A stretch of 64,000 nucleotides of DNA from Actinomycetota bacterium (lineage in GTDB: Bacteria > Actinomycetota > Geothermincolia > Geothermincolales > RBG-13-55-18): assembly GCA_028697145.1 (NCBI GenBank), contig JAQVFR010000005.1, positions 1 to 64,000 of the forward strand. The letters run 5' to 3'. Below the pieces are notes generated by a model that saw only the letters and a list, made by a program, of their open reading frames with translations, made no database searches and was not told where the DNA came from. Each line of letters starts with the position of its first letter. The first letter of the stretch is position 1. Below, one piece after another: positions 46,219 to 52,306 of the stretch. The position numbers and the translations under genes are program-made.

Positions 46219-47160
46219 CTATGAAGCCGGGACGCAGGCGTTCTCTATGAGCCACGCGTAGGCGGAGAGCGCGGCCTTGGCCCCCTCGCCCGCGGCGATG
46301 ATTATCTGTTTCTCCACCACGTTGGTGACATCTCCTGCCGCGAAGAGGCCGGGGATGCTGGTGCGGTTGTTGGAGTCGATTACTATCTCTCCCAGCTCGT
46401 TCAGCTCTACCCCGGGGGGGAGAAAAGCGGTGCTGGGGATGCTGCCGATCTCTATGAAGACGCCCGAGACCTCCAGGGACCTCTCCGCGCCGTCCACCAG
46501 GAGATCGATGGCAGCGACGAACCTCTCGCCGCGTATGGCAGCTACCTGCGTGGAGGTGAGCACCTCTATCTTCCCCGCCGCCGTTACCTGGTTGCGGCGT
46601 ATCTCGTCTCCGCTCAGGCACTCCTCCACGGTGACGACGTAAACCTTCTCGGCTATCTGGTTCAGCTGCAGCGCGGCGTCCAGGGCTGAGTTGCCGCCGC
46701 CGATCACCGCCACCTTCTTGCCGCGGAAGAGGGGACCATCGCACGTGGAGCAGTAGGCGACGCCGCGGCCGCGGAAGGTGTCCTCCCCGGGAACGTCCAG
46801 GAGCCGCGGGACCTTGCCGGAGGCGACGATCACCGCTCGCGCCGCCAGCTCTCCATCCCTGTCGCTGTTGACGACGAAACCATCGTCCGTTCTGGCCAGG
46901 GTGGAGACGTTGCGCCCGTCCCGCAACTCCACCTTGAAGTTGTCCAGGTGTTCGCGAAAACGCTCCACCAGTTCCACGCCGGTGATGAGCTGGTACCCGA
47001 GGTAGTTCTCGACCTCCCAGGACCACGTGGCCTGGCCGCCGATATTGGCGGAGACCACGAGGGTATCGAGCATCTTGCGCGCGCAATAAATCCCAGCCGA
47101 GAGGCCCGCCGGCCCGGCGCCCACGATCAGCACATCGTACATTCTCTCCCCCGCGGTCAT
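46219..47160 (-). CDS. trxB: Thioredoxin reductase-like FAD oxidoreductase
   Basis: A 313-residue flavoprotein of low-molecular-weight TrxR/AhpF-C type. FAD motif VLIVGAGPAGLSAGIY near the N-terminus, redox-active CSTCDGP (C-x-x-C) near residue 136, NAD(P)H-binding KVAVIGGGNSALDAAL, and GLFAAGDVTN at the C-terminal FAD site. It should reduce a thioredoxin-, glutaredoxin- or AhpF-like partner; the natural acceptor could be thiols that service the nearby peroxiredoxin (inference). Its ATG overlaps the ftsH stop by four bases (ATGA), making it the last gene of the Rrf2 operon. Confidence 0.9.
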   Translation of the reverse strand: MTAGERMYDVLIVGAGPAGLSAGIYCARKMLDTLVVSANIGGQATWSWEVENYLGYQLITGVELVERFREHLDNFKVELRDGRNVSTLARTDDGFVVNSDRDGELAARAVIVASGKVPRLLDVPGEDTFRGRGVAYCSTCDGPLFRGKKVAVIGGGNSALDAALQLNQIAEKVYVVTVEECLSGDEIRRNQVTAAGKIEVLTSTQVAAIRGERFVAAIDLLVDGAERSLEVSGVFIEIGSIPSTAFLPPGVELNELGEIVIDSNNRTSIPGLFAAGDVTNVVEKQIIIAAGEGAKAALSAYAWLIENACVPAS

Positions 47161-49010
47161 ACCGTGGCGACCTGGCGGCCGGGACGATATTTTTCCATCA
47201 ACTCGCGGAAGGCGTCGCCCTCCAGGGTCTCCTTCTCCAGGAGCATCCCGGCGATGCCCTCCAGCGCTGCGGTGTTCTCCTCGAGGATTCTCTTCACGCG
47301 GTCGTAGTTGCCGGTGATGATCCGCTTGACTTCCTGGTCTATGACCTCTGCCGTGGCCTCGCTGTAATTGGATTCCTTGCCGTAGGAGTACTCGCCCATG
47401 AGAAGGCGCGCCCCCCTCTCCATGCCCAGGGAGATGGGTCCCACCCTTTCGCTCATGCCGTAGTCCTCCACCATCTTTCGCGTCAGGATGGTGGCTTTTT
47501 CCAGGTCGTTCTGAGCCCCGGTAGAGACCTGTCCCAGCATGATCTCCTCGGCGGCGCGGCCCCCCAGGAGCACGCCCAGGCGGTCCTCCAGCTCGGGCAG
47601 GGTCATGATGTAGCGGTCCTCTTCGGGCAGCTGCGTGGTCATGCCCAGCGACCCTATGCCGCGGGGTATCACCGTTATGCGGTGCACCGGGTCGGCGTGC
47701 TCCAGCAGCGAGGCGGCCAGCGCGTGGCCCACTTCGTGGAAGGCCACCACCCGCCTCTCCTTTTCGCTCATGACCCGGCTCTTGAGCTCGAGGCCCCCGA
47801 TGACACGGTCGATGGCCTGCTCGAAATCCTCCTCGAACACCTGCTTTTTATCCTTGCGCGCCGCGAGCAGGGCGGCCTCGTTCACCACGTTGGCCAGCTC
47901 GGCGCCCGCGAAGCCCGGGGTGCGCGCGGCTATCTTCTTCAGGTCCACGTCGTCCGCGAGCTTGACCCGTCTCGCGTGGACCTTGAGTATCTCCTCGCGC
48001 CCCCGGATGTCCGGGCGGTCGATCATGATCTGCCGGTCGAAGCGGCCGGGGCGCAGGATGGCGCTGTCCAGGACCTCGGGGCGGTTGGTCGCGGCCAGGA
48101 TTATCACTCCCGTCTGTGGGTCGAAGCCGTCCATCTCCGACAGCAGCTGGTTCAAGGTCTGTTCCCGCTCCTCCGTCCCCCCGCTGGCGACGATGCCGCC
48201 GCGCACCTTACCGATGGACTCGATCTCGTCGATGAACACGATGCAGGGCGCCTTGGCCTTGGCCTGTTCGAAGAGGTCACGCACGCGTGCGGCTCCCACA
48301 CCCACGAACATCTCCATGAACTGCGAGCCGCTGATGGAGAAGAACGGCACGTCGGCCTCGCCCGCGACGGCGCGGGCCATGAGGGTCTTACCCGTACCCG
48401 GCGCCCCCACCAGCAGCACGCCCTTGGGGATAAGGGCCCCGATGCTGCGGTATTTCTGCGGTTTGCGCAGGAAATCGATGATCTCGCGCAGTTCCTCCTT
48501 GGCCTCGTCGAGCCCGGCCACGTCGTCGAAGGTCACCCGCTCGACGCTGCGGTCGTATAGCTTCACCTTGGACTGGCCGAAGGACATGGGGCTTGCTCCC
48601 CCGATGCGCCTGGAGAGGCGCCGGAACACGAAGAACCAGATGAACAGGATGAGGCCGAGGGGAAGGATCCAGGTGATGAGGAAGTCGCGCCAGAAAGTGT
48701 TCTCCACCTTTCCCGAGAACTCCACCCCCTTTTCCGCCAACAGGTTGATGAGTTCCTGGTCGTCCGTGTTGGGAATACGGCTGGTGACGAAATCGCTTTC
48801 CGCGTTCTCGCTGACGGATTTTCCCTCGATGCGGGTTTCCGTGACCGTCACCTCGGTGATCTGCCCCGCCTCCAGTCGCGCGAGGAACTCGCTGTAGCTG
48901 ATCTCCGGCGATTGGAACGGGTTGGCGAACTGGATGCTCAGGATGATGGCCAGAGCGATAAGGCCGTAGACCACGTACAGCCATACCCTTTTTTTCTTGC
49001 TTTCTTCCAT
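47157..49010 (-). CDS. ftsH: ATP-dependent zinc metalloprotease FtsH
   Basis: A 617-residue membrane protease. TM1 is near residues 8-25 and TM2 near 107-127, with a periplasmic loop between. The AAA domain has Walker A GAPGTGKT (about 205-212), Walker [13 protein letters not shown] and [16 protein letters not shown]. The protease zinc site is HEVGH at residues 425-429, a variant of the usual HEAGH. FtsH degrades membrane proteins and short-lived regulators. ATG 49010 lacks an SD site; TATAAT (49017-49022) lies six bases upstream, inside the previous gene's stop codon. Operon with Rrf2, the ferredoxin-like gene and trxB. Confidence 0.96.
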
Positions 49011-49016
49011 AATCCC

Positions 49017-49022
49017 ATTATA
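49017..49022 (-). promoter_or_regulatory. Internal -10 box for leaderless ftsH mRNA
   Basis: A consensus TATAAT on the minus strand whose TAA is the stop codon of the upstream gene. Six bases separate it from the ftsH ATG, and no SD is present. No clear -35 can be seen. Confidence 0.45.
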
Positions 49023-49791
49023 CCCGCAATGCGGGAGGGTCCTTTTCGTCCTCGAGCAACTCGCCCTGGATGCCTACCTTGACAGTGCGGAAGGGTATGT
49101 CCTTGCCGGATTCCCGCAGGGCCTGGCGCGCCAGGTTCACCAGCCCGGAACAGCAGGGGACCTCCATGTAGGCCACGGTGAGTTCACGGATGTCGTTTTC
49201 CCGCAGGATGGACGCGAGCTTTTCGCGGTAGAAGGCGGCGTCGTCCAGCTTAGGGCACCCCACGATGAGGGTCTTCCCCGCGAGCAGGCCGCGGTGGAAA
49301 TCGGGGTACGCGAAACCCACGCAGTCGGCGGCCAGCAGCAGGCTCGCTTTATCCAGATATGGGGCGCCCTGCGGCACCAGGTGCATCTGCACCGGCCAGT
49401 TGCGAAGGTGGGAGGGTATGCCCTCCACCTCATCGCCGGCAGCCTCCCGGGCCTCGGCCGCCGGGTCGAGCTCGCGGATCATGGAGCCGGGACAGCCGCA
49501 GGCGAGGGCCTCGGCCGCCGCGGCGGGGACCGCGCCTCGCTCGCCTTCCTCCGCCGCGGCGAGGTGGCGCTCCACCGCCGCTTCGTCGAACTCCGCCGCC
49601 TCCCGCTCGACGATGGTTATTGCGCCCTGCGGGCATTCCCCGATGCAGGCGCCCAGGCCGTCGCAATAGGTATCGCTCACCAGCCTGGCCTTGCCGCCCA
49701 CCATGCGGATGGCCCCCTCGGAGCAGGCGGAGGCGCAGAGCCCGCAGCCGTCGCATTTCTCCTCGTCTATCTGTATGATCTTCCTGATCAT
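49018..49791 (-). CDS. Dicluster ferredoxin-like protein with a C-terminal Cys-containing domain
   Basis: A 257-residue protein. The N-terminal ferredoxin region has DEEKCDGCGLCASACSEGAI and, for the second cluster, DTYCDGLGACIGECPQGAI, consistent with two [4Fe-4S] clusters. An Ala/Glu-rich linker follows, with CGCPGS near 100, and the C-terminal domain has LLLAADCVGFAYPDFH, LIVGCPKLDD and VPCCSGLVNLARQAL. Such proteins occur in anaerobes next to hydrogenases or reductases, but the C-terminal domain has no known function. Second gene of the Rrf2 operon, seven bases after rrf2; regulator and Fe-S protein may share a cluster signal. Confidence 0.85.
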   Translation of the reverse strand: MIRKIIQIDEEKCDGCGLCASACSEGAIRMVGGKARLVSDTYCDGLGACIGECPQGAITIVEREAAEFDEAAVERHLAAAEEGERGAVPAAAAEALACGCPGSMIRELDPAAEAREAAGDEVEGIPSHLRNWPVQMHLVPQGAPYLDKASLLLAADCVGFAYPDFHRGLLAGKTLIVGCPKLDDAAFYREKLASILRENDIRELTVAYMEVPCCSGLVNLARQALRESGKDIPFRTVKVGIQGELLEDEKDPPALRV

Positions 49792-49798
49792 GCCGCGC

Positions 49799-50218
49799 TC
49801 ACTCCTTCAATACATCCTTGATCCTCTCCACCGTGGTGTGCTCAAGGTAGTTCTTGAAGTCGCTGTTCACCTTGTGGATGAGATCGTCGAAGACACAACT
49901 CTTGCCACCGCATATCTGCGTGCCGATGAGGCAGTCTTCCAGCTGCAGCGGACCTTCCACGCCCTCGTAGATGTCGCGCAGGGTTATCTCGACGGCGGGA
50001 CGGTTCAGTGAGAACCCCCCTCCCGGTCCGCGGGACGACCTGAGTATGCGCGCGCGCACCAGTCTCTGCAGGACCTTGGACAGATGGGCTTCCGAGACGC
50101 CGAGCCGGGAGGCTATATCGTGCGCTGTCACCGCCGCCCCGTTTTTTTCCGCCCCGACCATGGACATGGCGTGCAGCGCCAGAGAATAGGCTTCCGAGAT
50201 GTTCAGCATGCTCTTCAT
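49799..50218 (-). CDS. Rrf2 family transcriptional regulator (Fe-S sensing type)
   Basis: A 139-residue Rrf2 protein starting at ATG 50218, six bases after GGAGGTGG. The winged helix contains HDIASRLGVSEAHLSKVLQRLVRARILRSSRGPGGGFSL, typical of the family. Three Cys, C96, C103 and C108 (CLIGTQICGGKSC), match the cluster ligands of IscR/NsrR/RsrR-type regulators, so a [2Fe-2S] or [4Fe-4S] cluster is likely. It probably senses iron-sulfur status, O2 or NO. It is the first gene of the rrf2-Fd-ftsH-trxB operon, and a perfect palindrome covers its own promoter. Confidence 0.92.
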   Translation of the reverse strand: MKSMLNISEAYSLALHAMSMVGAEKNGAAVTAHDIASRLGVSEAHLSKVLQRLVRARILRSSRGPGGGFSLNRPAVEITLRDIYEGVEGPLQLEDCLIGTQICGGKSCVFDDLIHKVNSDFKNYLEHTTVERIKDVLKE

Positions 50219-50260
50219 CTTCCACCTCCGAGCTGGTCCGCACCATACTGAGAAAAATAA

Positions 50261-50301
50261 GTAATATGATACCATATTACCATAATTATGGCCGTGGTCA
50301 A
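50261..50301 (-). promoter_or_regulatory. Promoter and overlapping palindromic operator of the rrf2 operon
   Basis: On the minus strand: -35 TTGACC (50296-50301), 16-base spacer, -10 TAATAT (50274-50279). Two perfect palindromes sit on it: GTAATATG-N4-CATATTAC (50261-50280), overlapping the -10, and CCATAATTATGG (50280-50291), inside the spacer. Position and symmetry fit an autoregulatory Rrf2 site. The sequence is not an obvious copy of the NsrR or IscR consensus. Confidence 0.7.
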
Positions 50302-50566
50302 ACCCCTGGATGAAGCATGAACGCACCCCCGTGCTTTATGGGCGACTGTAAAATAACCTGCCGCATCCCGTTATTCCAGAGCATGTTTCGGGAATAATGG
50401 AAAACAGTCAAGACATCATCGTGCTGTGGGAGAAATATCTCCTTGAAGCGCGTGAATATGTGCGCGGAATCGAGAGGCGTCAGACCAGCCGTGAAGACAC
50501 GCGAGAGGTAGAGACGGGTCGAACGCACAAGGGCGGGAAACCCGGGGACGAGAGGGAGGTGATCGA
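50302..50566 (+). other. Intergenic region between rrf2 and the selenoprotein gene
   Basis: With the operator region this is a gap of about 350 bases. It has an inverted repeat TTATTCC...GGAATAA (50371-50377 and 50391-50397) with a 13-base loop, possibly a regulator site for the peroxiredoxin gene. A short frame of 69 codons from ATG 50397 overlaps the peroxiredoxin start and was not accepted. Confidence 0.4.
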
Positions 50567-51292
50567 TTGGCAGCGACCAAGGCGGAGCCCAAGGACCAGT
50601 GTGTGAAGCCGGCGAAGGGCATCATCTCGCAGGCGAAGGCCGGAGCGGCGAAAGCCGGTGAGCCCGCAGCGCCAGAGGGAGGTACTGGAGTGATAGCACA
50701 AGTCGGAAAGCCCGCCCCTGATTTCGAAGCCAGTGCTTTCGTGGGGGGCGGATTCAAGAACGTCAGGCTGTCGGATTACAAGGGCAAGTGGGTAGTGCTG
50801 TGCTTCTATCCGGGTGATTTTACCTTCGTATGACCTACGGAGCTGTCGGCAGTTGCCGCCAAGTACAAGGAGCTGAAGAAACTGGGCGTCGAGGTCATCT
50901 CCATGAGCGTGGACAGCAGGTTCGTACACAAGATATGGCAGGAAGAGGAGCTGTCCAAGATGGTCAAAGGGGGAATCCCCTTCCCCATGCTCACGGATGC
51001 GGGAGGCCGCATCGGGCGGGCCTACGGCGTGTATGACGAGGACGCGGGCGTGAACATACGCGGCCGCTTTCTCATCGATCCGGACGGGATCATACAGGCG
51101 ATGGAGGTGATGACCCCTTCGGTCGGGCGTAACGTGTCCGAATTGATCAGGCAGGTCAAGGCGTTCCAGCACACCATGAAGACCGGTGAGGTCATGCCGT
51201 CCGGCTGGCAGCCGGGCAAGCCCACCCTGAAGCCCGGGCCGGACCTCGCGGGCAAGGTGTGGAAAGTATGGAAGGTTGAGGACGCATTCTGA
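50567..51292 (+). CDS. Peroxiredoxin (AhpC/TSA), selenocysteine-containing: in-frame UGA at the peroxidatic Cys
   Basis: One continuous peroxiredoxin frame is interrupted only by TGA at 50831-50833. Upstream the protein reads [11 protein letters not shown] and downstream [11 protein letters not shown], so the UGA falls exactly on the peroxidatic Cys of the FVCPTE motif. All other domains are intact: PDFEASA, the FYPGDFTF strand, DSRFVHKIW and [16 protein letters not shown]-like hairpin follows 13 bases after the UGA. Counted from TTG 50567 (perfect GGAGGTGATC site), Sec is residue 89; from the alternative GTG 50690 (GGGAGG) it is Sec48, the usual AhpC position. The resolving-Cys motif EVCPA(N)W is EVMPSGW, so this is a 1-Sec enzyme needing an outside thiol. 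It would reduce peroxides. A nonsense mutation is possible but unlikely at this exact codon. Confidence 0.85.
50847..50858 (+). promoter_or_regulatory. SECIS-like hairpin downstream of the UGA
   Basis: CGGC-AGUU-GCCG: a 4-bp stem with a tetraloop containing GU, extended by a G-C pair across a mismatch. The stem begins 13 bases after the UGA and the loop 17 bases after, which fits bacterial SECIS placement. The stem is short, so confidence is moderate. Confidence 0.5.
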
Positions 51293-51372: not shown

Positions 51373-51750
51373 TCAGCTCGTTTTCCAGAGGCCGTGCAGG
51401 TTGCAGTATTCCCGCGCGGTGATGCCCTTCTTGGGTGGCGTGAACTTTCCCTCCGGCGCCATACCAGGCTTGAGAAATATGCGCGAGCACCTGTCGCCCA
51501 CGATGATCTGGACCCACTCGATATAGTGGTCGTCCTGCATGGGATGCGCTACTTCCCCGACCTTCACCACTACCCCGTCCTCTAGCACCTCGACCACGGG
51601 GACGTGCTTTTCCACCGCGGCGTCAACGGTGTTCTCGGTCTGCAGGACCATTTCCTCGCCACAGCAGACCAGAGTTCCCTTGCCGCCGTGCAGCACCTCG
51701 ACGATGTTGCCGCATATCTCGCACTTGTAGATCTCCATCCTCTCTGCCAT
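51373..51750 (-). CDS. dfx: Desulfoferrodoxin / superoxide reductase
   Basis: A 125-residue two-domain SOR. The desulforedoxin-like domain has C10-x2-C13 and C29-C30 as rubredoxin-type iron ligands. The catalytic SOR domain has E47-K48-H49, H70 (AHPMQDDHY) with H76, and the C-terminal CNLHG for the Cys/His ligands of the active-site Fe. It reduces superoxide to H2O2 without releasing O2, the usual defence of anaerobes. Downstream of rubrerythrin by 52 bases on the same strand. ATG 51750 follows AAAGGAGGAACGG. Confidence 0.96.
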   Translation of the reverse strand: MAERMEIYKCEICGNIVEVLHGGKGTLVCCGEEMVLQTENTVDAAVEKHVPVVEVLEDGVVVKVGEVAHPMQDDHYIEWVQIIVGDRCSRIFLKPGMAPEGKFTPPKKGITAREYCNLHGLWKTS

Positions 51751-51802: not shown

Positions 51803-52306
51803 TCAGAACTGCCGGAACTTTTCCCTGGATGCGCCGCAGATGGGGCACTTGTCCGGGGCTTCGCCCTCGCGCGTGTGCCCGCAGACGCTGCATATCTGGA
51901 TCGCGCCCACCTTGACGTCCTCGCCCCCGTCCACGGCCCCCTTGGACTTCTTGTACCAGTCAGCGTGGATCTTCTCGGCTTCCAGGGCGTAGTGTGTGCT
52001 GCGCACTGCACCGGCTTCATCCTGCAACTTGGCTGCGGCGTTGTACACCGGGTACATCTCGTCGATCTCGAAGGTCTCCCCCTCGATACATGACTGGATA
52101 TTGTCGGAAGTCGATTTCAGATCGCCCAGCGCATCGAGGTGGTTGCCGGCATGAACCAGCTCAGCGTAAGCGATAGCCCGGAACATCCTGGCCATTTCCG
52201 TGAGGCCTTCCTGCTCGGCCCTGTCCGCGAAGAGCATGTATTTCATATGGGCCATGCTCTCGCCGGCAAAGGCGTCGTTGAGAAATCTCTCCGTCATCTC
52301 TCTCAT
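51803..52306 (-). CDS. rbr: Rubrerythrin
   Basis: A 167-residue rubrerythrin of the short type. The ferritin-like diiron domain has LNDAFAGESMAHMKY, ARMFRAIAYAELVHAGNHL and later HYALEAEKIHADWY, giving the E-ExxH pairs. The C-terminal rubredoxin domain has ICSVCGHTREGEAPDKCPICGA (two CxxC). It reduces H2O2 to water with electrons from reduced rubredoxin or NADH. Together with Dfx it forms the classical anaerobe pair: superoxide to peroxide to water. It is the first gene of the rbr-dfx unit, ATG 52306 behind AGGAGG. Confidence 0.96.
   Translation of the reverse strand: MREMTERFLNDAFAGESMAHMKYMLFADRAEQEGLTEMARMFRAIAYAELVHAGNHLDALGDLKSTSDNIQSCIEGETFEIDEMYPVYNAAAKLQDEAGAVRSTHYALEAEKIHADWYKKSKGAVDGGEDVKVGAIQICSVCGHTREGEAPDKCPICGASREKFRQF

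Follow-up and report, generated by a model that had tools for sequence, protein, structure and literature searches.

Defence against NO and oxidants in strict anaerobes is known mostly through HcpR, a CRP/FNR-type regulator that controls hcp and frdX in other anaerobes. Within the Rrf2 family, the closest described regulators comprise (i) NsrR, governing a small NO-defence regulon; (ii) RsrR, the [2Fe-2S] redox regulator of Streptomyces, in which His and Glu ligands of the cluster are supplied by the partner subunit; and (iii) IscR, which autoregulates the operon that it heads. The locus analysed here lies in a window of 64,000 nucleotides, the whole stretch of DNA under study, and carries a 22-bp palindromic site that, judged from sequence comparison, is very probably the DNA site of a predicted Fe-S stress regulator of the Rrf2 type controlling its own operon.

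By direct reading, the plus strand at positions 50261-50280 is GTAATATGATACCATATTAC, the palindrome GTAATATG-N4-CATATTAC, which forms the inner 20 bp of the predicted operator (50260-50281, minus strand, reading GGTAATATGGTATCATATTACT); the 22-bp extent is supported by a held-out position weight matrix (PWM) and by the same register in homologous promoters. The promoter of the operon, TTGACC-N16-TAATAT on the minus strand, reads into the Rrf2 gene that begins at 50218. Its -35 element TTGACC (50296-50301, read 50301-50296) is matched in position by TTGACN in most relatives, and its -10 element TAATAT with an extended TGG (50274-50279, read 50279-50274) lies in the promoter-proximal arm of the operator, where relatives carry a TATTnT -10. 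A second perfect palindrome of 12 bp, CCATAATTATGG (50280-50291), is located inside the spacer and shares base 50280 with the first. The arrangement described by the earlier note, with the first palindrome over the -10 and the second filling the spacer of the same promoter, is thus what the sequence reads.

The first gene of the operon (49802-50218, minus strand) encodes a 139-residue Rrf2-family regulator, identified by PF02082 (107.8 bits, cut-off 30), TIGR00738 (96.2 bits, cut-off 73.3), an alignment of 64 orthologues and a structure model. The three Cys that the earlier note had picked out as candidate cluster ligands, Cys96-x6-Cys103-x4-Cys108, prove near-invariant (64/64, 63/64 and 62/64 orthologues, respectively), with the C-x6-C-x4-C spacing preserved in 49 of the 63 orthologues in which it is readable. 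In addition, His16 in helix 1 is present in all 64 orthologues and aligns with RsrR residue 12; position 12 of the regulator itself is occupied by Ser, Asn, Ala, Thr or Met and in none of the 64 by Asp, being Ser in the window; Glu9, about one turn ahead of position 12, is near-invariant. A cluster site built from three Cys plus a His is thus a possible feature of this subgroup. The structure model (pLDDT 89.7) displays a winged-helix fold, with RsrR, CymR, IscR and NsrR as top PDB matches, RsrR first. Among the NCBIfam models, the protein scores below the cut-offs of IscR, NsrR, RirA, CymR and HypR, including 41.5 versus 182 bits for NsrR (NF008240), 61.4 versus 207.55 and 45 versus 275 bits for two IscR models (TIGR02010 and a second one), and 42.9 versus 195 bits for CymR (NF047409).

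Searching 31 genomes of the class for an orthologue of this regulator separated 15 with from 16 without, the class relatives sharing 41-73% identity with the window protein. The upstream regions of these orthologues have one palindromic element in common, in the same register and over the -10. Of the 15 genomes that carry the orthologue, 13 match a degenerate operator pattern, against 0 of the 16 that lack it, with a single site per genome, a co-occurrence with a probability of about 5e-7 if the genomes are taken as independent; in the two orthologue-bearing genomes missed by the pattern, the matrix finds sites scoring 21.7 and 22.3. In each of the 15, a matching 22-bp site lies over a core promoter, be it that of rrf2, of hcp or of frdX. 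A PWM trained on ten class sites, with the window site excluded, gives the latter 20.8, and the next independent place in the 64 kb 3.6. Across 52 distinct sites from all phyla, the consensus is GGTATTnTRGTACYAnAATACC, with G10 and T11 at the centre near-invariant; the window operator departs from it by T to A in both arms and by GTAT for GTAC. Covariation between the arms rises clearly above shuffles only at positions 3/20 (0 of 2000), a signal confounded by relatedness, and at the other symmetric position pairs it does not exceed them. The pattern GTAATATG-N4-CATATTAC with up to three mismatches occurs once in the window, against 0.02 expected. The earlier note had proposed scanning the genome for further copies: a pattern search of the window's own genome found no exact second copy and, as a candidate operator elsewhere, just one match with three mismatches, within a coding region and with a matrix score of 0.9.

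The same site is found 5' of orthologues in Synergistota and Verrucomicrobiota/Lentisphaerota, where close Rrf2 homologues were detected in 54 of 121 genomes of the order of a Synergistaceae genome and in 36 of 338 genomes of the phylum of a Lentisphaerae genome. A score of 12 or more is reached by 50 of the 76 upstream regions of orthologues, the site mostly lying about 40-75 bp ahead of the start; for some orthologues, the 250 bp of upstream DNA contain nothing above 12, and several lower-scoring upstreams retain the operator layout, e.g., GGTAAATAGGTACGCTATTACC. For other Rrf2 paralogues, 18 upstreams reach a matrix score of at most 7.1. Overlap of the site with the core promoter is seen throughout, in two arrangements: TTGACA is spaced by 16-17 bp from a TATTnT that belongs to the promoter-proximal arm, or it stands shortly ahead of the site. 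The core of the 22-bp site is therefore clearly conserved 5' of homologous operons, within the class and in other phyla, the very point on which the earlier note had staked its proposal of an Rrf2 autoregulatory operator, and that proposal is strengthened at the level of sequence. The spacer palindrome fares otherwise: CCATAATTATGG matches at 5-9 of its 12 bases in 11 relatives, falls outside the conserved operator and was rejected as a second operator for want of conservation; it is probably merely AT-rich spacer.

Downstream of rrf2, all on the minus strand, the operon comprises genes for (i) an FrdX-like two-cluster ferredoxin of 257 residues (49018-49791), recognized by its Fer4 domains and conserved neighbours; (ii) an FtsH protease (47157-49010), recognized from its translation; and (iii) a thioredoxin-reductase-like flavoprotein of the TrxB/AhpF-like type (46219-47160), with TIGR03140/TIGR01292 matches below the cut-offs. 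The trxB and ftsH genes overlap by 4 bp, and the order rrf2-frdX-ftsH-trxB is maintained within the family. Among the class genomes, 14 of 15 have an FrdX homologue adjoining rrf2, as do most of the distant genomes, and hcp often precedes or follows it; the name FrdX is adopted from this context beside hcp and from published hcp-frdX operons. Considering the 50 loci with the site, FrdX lies within 1.5 kb in 42, Hcp in 28, and an FrdX-like ferredoxin or hcp in 48. The position of the site follows these genes: it is 5' of hcp in two hcp-rrf2-frdX operons (G022, G025), and 5' of frdX in G028, where frdX is on a different contig from rrf2 and the rrf2 promoter has just one good half-site left (score 6.0). 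For Synergistota hcp-rrf2 operons devoid of an rrf2 site, the predicted site upstream of hcp is present in 3 of 3, scoring 16.0-17.0 at 27-55 bp from the hcp ATG. An Rrf2 clade represented by L192 (G231:C58) displays a variant site, of the GTAAATAGGTACGCTATTAC type, and there rrf2 is immediately followed by the gene for a flavodiiron protein. For the operon, with FrdX here and Hcp and the flavodiiron protein elsewhere, a role in NO/oxidative stress fits better than one in Fe-S biogenesis.

Divergent from the operon lies the gene for the selenoprotein peroxiredoxin PrxU (50567-51292, plus strand; NCBIfam NF040737, 394 bits, cut-off 270), whose in-frame TGA at 50831-50833 corresponds to the active-site Cys position; it is considered here simply as a neighbour of the operator. 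Beside it are the genes for a desulfoferrodoxin (51373-51750) and a rubrerythrin (51803-52306). In four relatives (L034, L035, L065, L066), a short gene (MLSEIPKDLS...), whose product looks like a ferritin/rubrerythrin-type protein, is inserted between rrf2 and prxU, and is absent from the window (50302-50566). This intergenic region contains a second element at 50350-50405, GTAAAATAA-N(about 30)-GGGAATAATGG, kept within the genus (L034, L035) and possibly representing the divergent promoter or the site of another regulator.

In the model proposed, an Rrf2 homodimer would bind 50260-50281, where it would overlie both the -10 and the predicted transcription start, and would thereby repress its own operon rrf2-frdX-ftsH-trxB by blocking RNA polymerase. 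A labile Fe-S cluster would be held by the three Cys (C-x6-C-x4-C), possibly together with His16 from the partner subunit. NO, or a related nitrosative or oxidative stress, would probably damage this cluster and release the DNA, inducing the defence genes, namely frdX and, in relatives, also those of Hcp and the flavodiiron protein. The sequences themselves show the operator, its overlap with the promoter, its conservation, its link to the regulator and the genes nearby, whereas dimer binding, repression, the cluster and the signal are inferred. To this reading as a whole, from autoregulatory operator and Rrf2 binding to repression, labile cluster and release by NO or oxidants, a probability of about 0.78 is assigned.

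The nature of the signal is where a competing explanation carries most weight. The same operator and regulator could respond to O2 or peroxide, or to Fe-S or iron status, instead of NO, the operon being an oxidative-stress unit. PrxU, desulfoferrodoxin, rubrerythrin and TrxB in the window and the family neighbourhood agree with such a role, as do the status sensor IscR and the redox sensor RsrR, which share the fold, and FtsH and TrxB fit oxidative stress equally well. Against it stand FrdX and Hcp as constant partners across phyla and the flavodiiron protein in one clade, a set found under NO-responsive regulators in anaerobes, and this alternative is considered possible at about one chance in three. 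NO is favoured as the signal since anaerobes use Hcp, FrdX and flavodiiron proteins in their defence against NO. For the window genome, this preference rests on the relatives, since no Hcp-length hybrid cluster protein was found there but just two long Prismane matches, which by length look like CO dehydrogenase.

The remaining explanations dispute the operator itself. AT-rich promoter palindromes serve many regulators, and Rrf2 binding is here a prediction from sequence, so that another, global regulator might occupy the palindrome, with rrf2 simply heading an operon that this regulator targets; this is improbable in view of the single site per genome, confined to genomes with this Rrf2 orthologue, the movement of the site with hcp/frdX when gene order shifts and its absence 5' of other Rrf2 genes. 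A perfect inverted repeat directly 5' of a gene might also form an RNA hairpin, as an attenuator or a 5'-UTR stabiliser. This is more doubtful still: only one arm would be transcribed, with the start inside the palindrome, because the -10 lies inside it; the conserved bases make up a sequence motif whose centre is conserved as well; and no Rfam match was found for an RNA element. Palindromy alone is weak evidence for an operator because perfect palindromes are frequent in the window, with nine of the 8-4-8 type against 1.7 expected under a Markov model and 32 of the 6-0-6 type against 26 expected. A chance palindrome in an AT-rich promoter is the best reading for CCATAATTATGG, whereas for the first palindrome it is refuted by conservation and by co-occurrence with the orthologue, leaving chance the most remote of the explanations considered.

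Beyond the window, it is tentatively suggested, with the odds somewhat against it, that the Rrf2 subgroup of Actinomycetota, Synergistota and Verrucomicrobiota/Lentisphaerota is a strict-anaerobe NO sensor that replaces NsrR/HcpR in controlling hcp, frdX and flavodiiron genes, and that has an operator of its own and a cluster bound by three Cys of one subunit and a His of the other. A cross-phylum Rrf2 regulator with a recognizable 22-bp operator would provide a tool for finding such regulons in uncultured anaerobes, as well as a test case for the diversification of cluster ligands and DNA specificity among Rrf2 proteins. A search of the open-access literature for an earlier account of this operator yielded only work on HcpR and NsrR, an absence that is not proof of novelty.

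Compared with NsrR, the regulator has the Rrf2 fold in common, as well as three candidate cluster Cys, a predicted operator over the promoter and a probable small NO-defence regulon including hcp, but the Cys of NsrR are Cys93/99/105 versus C-x6-C-x4-C here, the fourth ligand of NsrR is Asp8 of the partner subunit whereas the aligned position in the window is Ser, and the published NsrR box, gATGyAT-N5-ATrCATc, differs from GGTATTnTRGTACYAnAATACC, as the earlier note had anticipated. RsrR is the best PDB match by both structure and sequence, and the invariant His16 aligns on the helix that gives the RsrR His ligand, which suggests a possible cluster role; nevertheless, RsrR has Glu8 where Ser is found here, uses two Cys versus three conserved, recognizes an 11-3-11 operator instead of a 22-bp site with no central gap, and controls different targets. 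IscR autoregulates the operon that it heads, as is predicted here, and shares an Fe-S-type Cys triad, but the loci studied here contain no isc/suf genes, the neighbours being FrdX, FtsH, TrxB, Hcp and the flavodiiron protein, and the IscR box, as the earlier note also held, is presumably different from the present operator. HcpR, too, acts on hcp and frdX in anaerobes but belongs to an unrelated protein family and recognizes an unrelated motif, its role appearing to be held here by the Rrf2 subgroup. By the sequence and structure comparisons made, the regulator thus seems to represent a distinct Rrf2 subgroup, predicted to act like NsrR, yet being neither NsrR, IscR nor RsrR.
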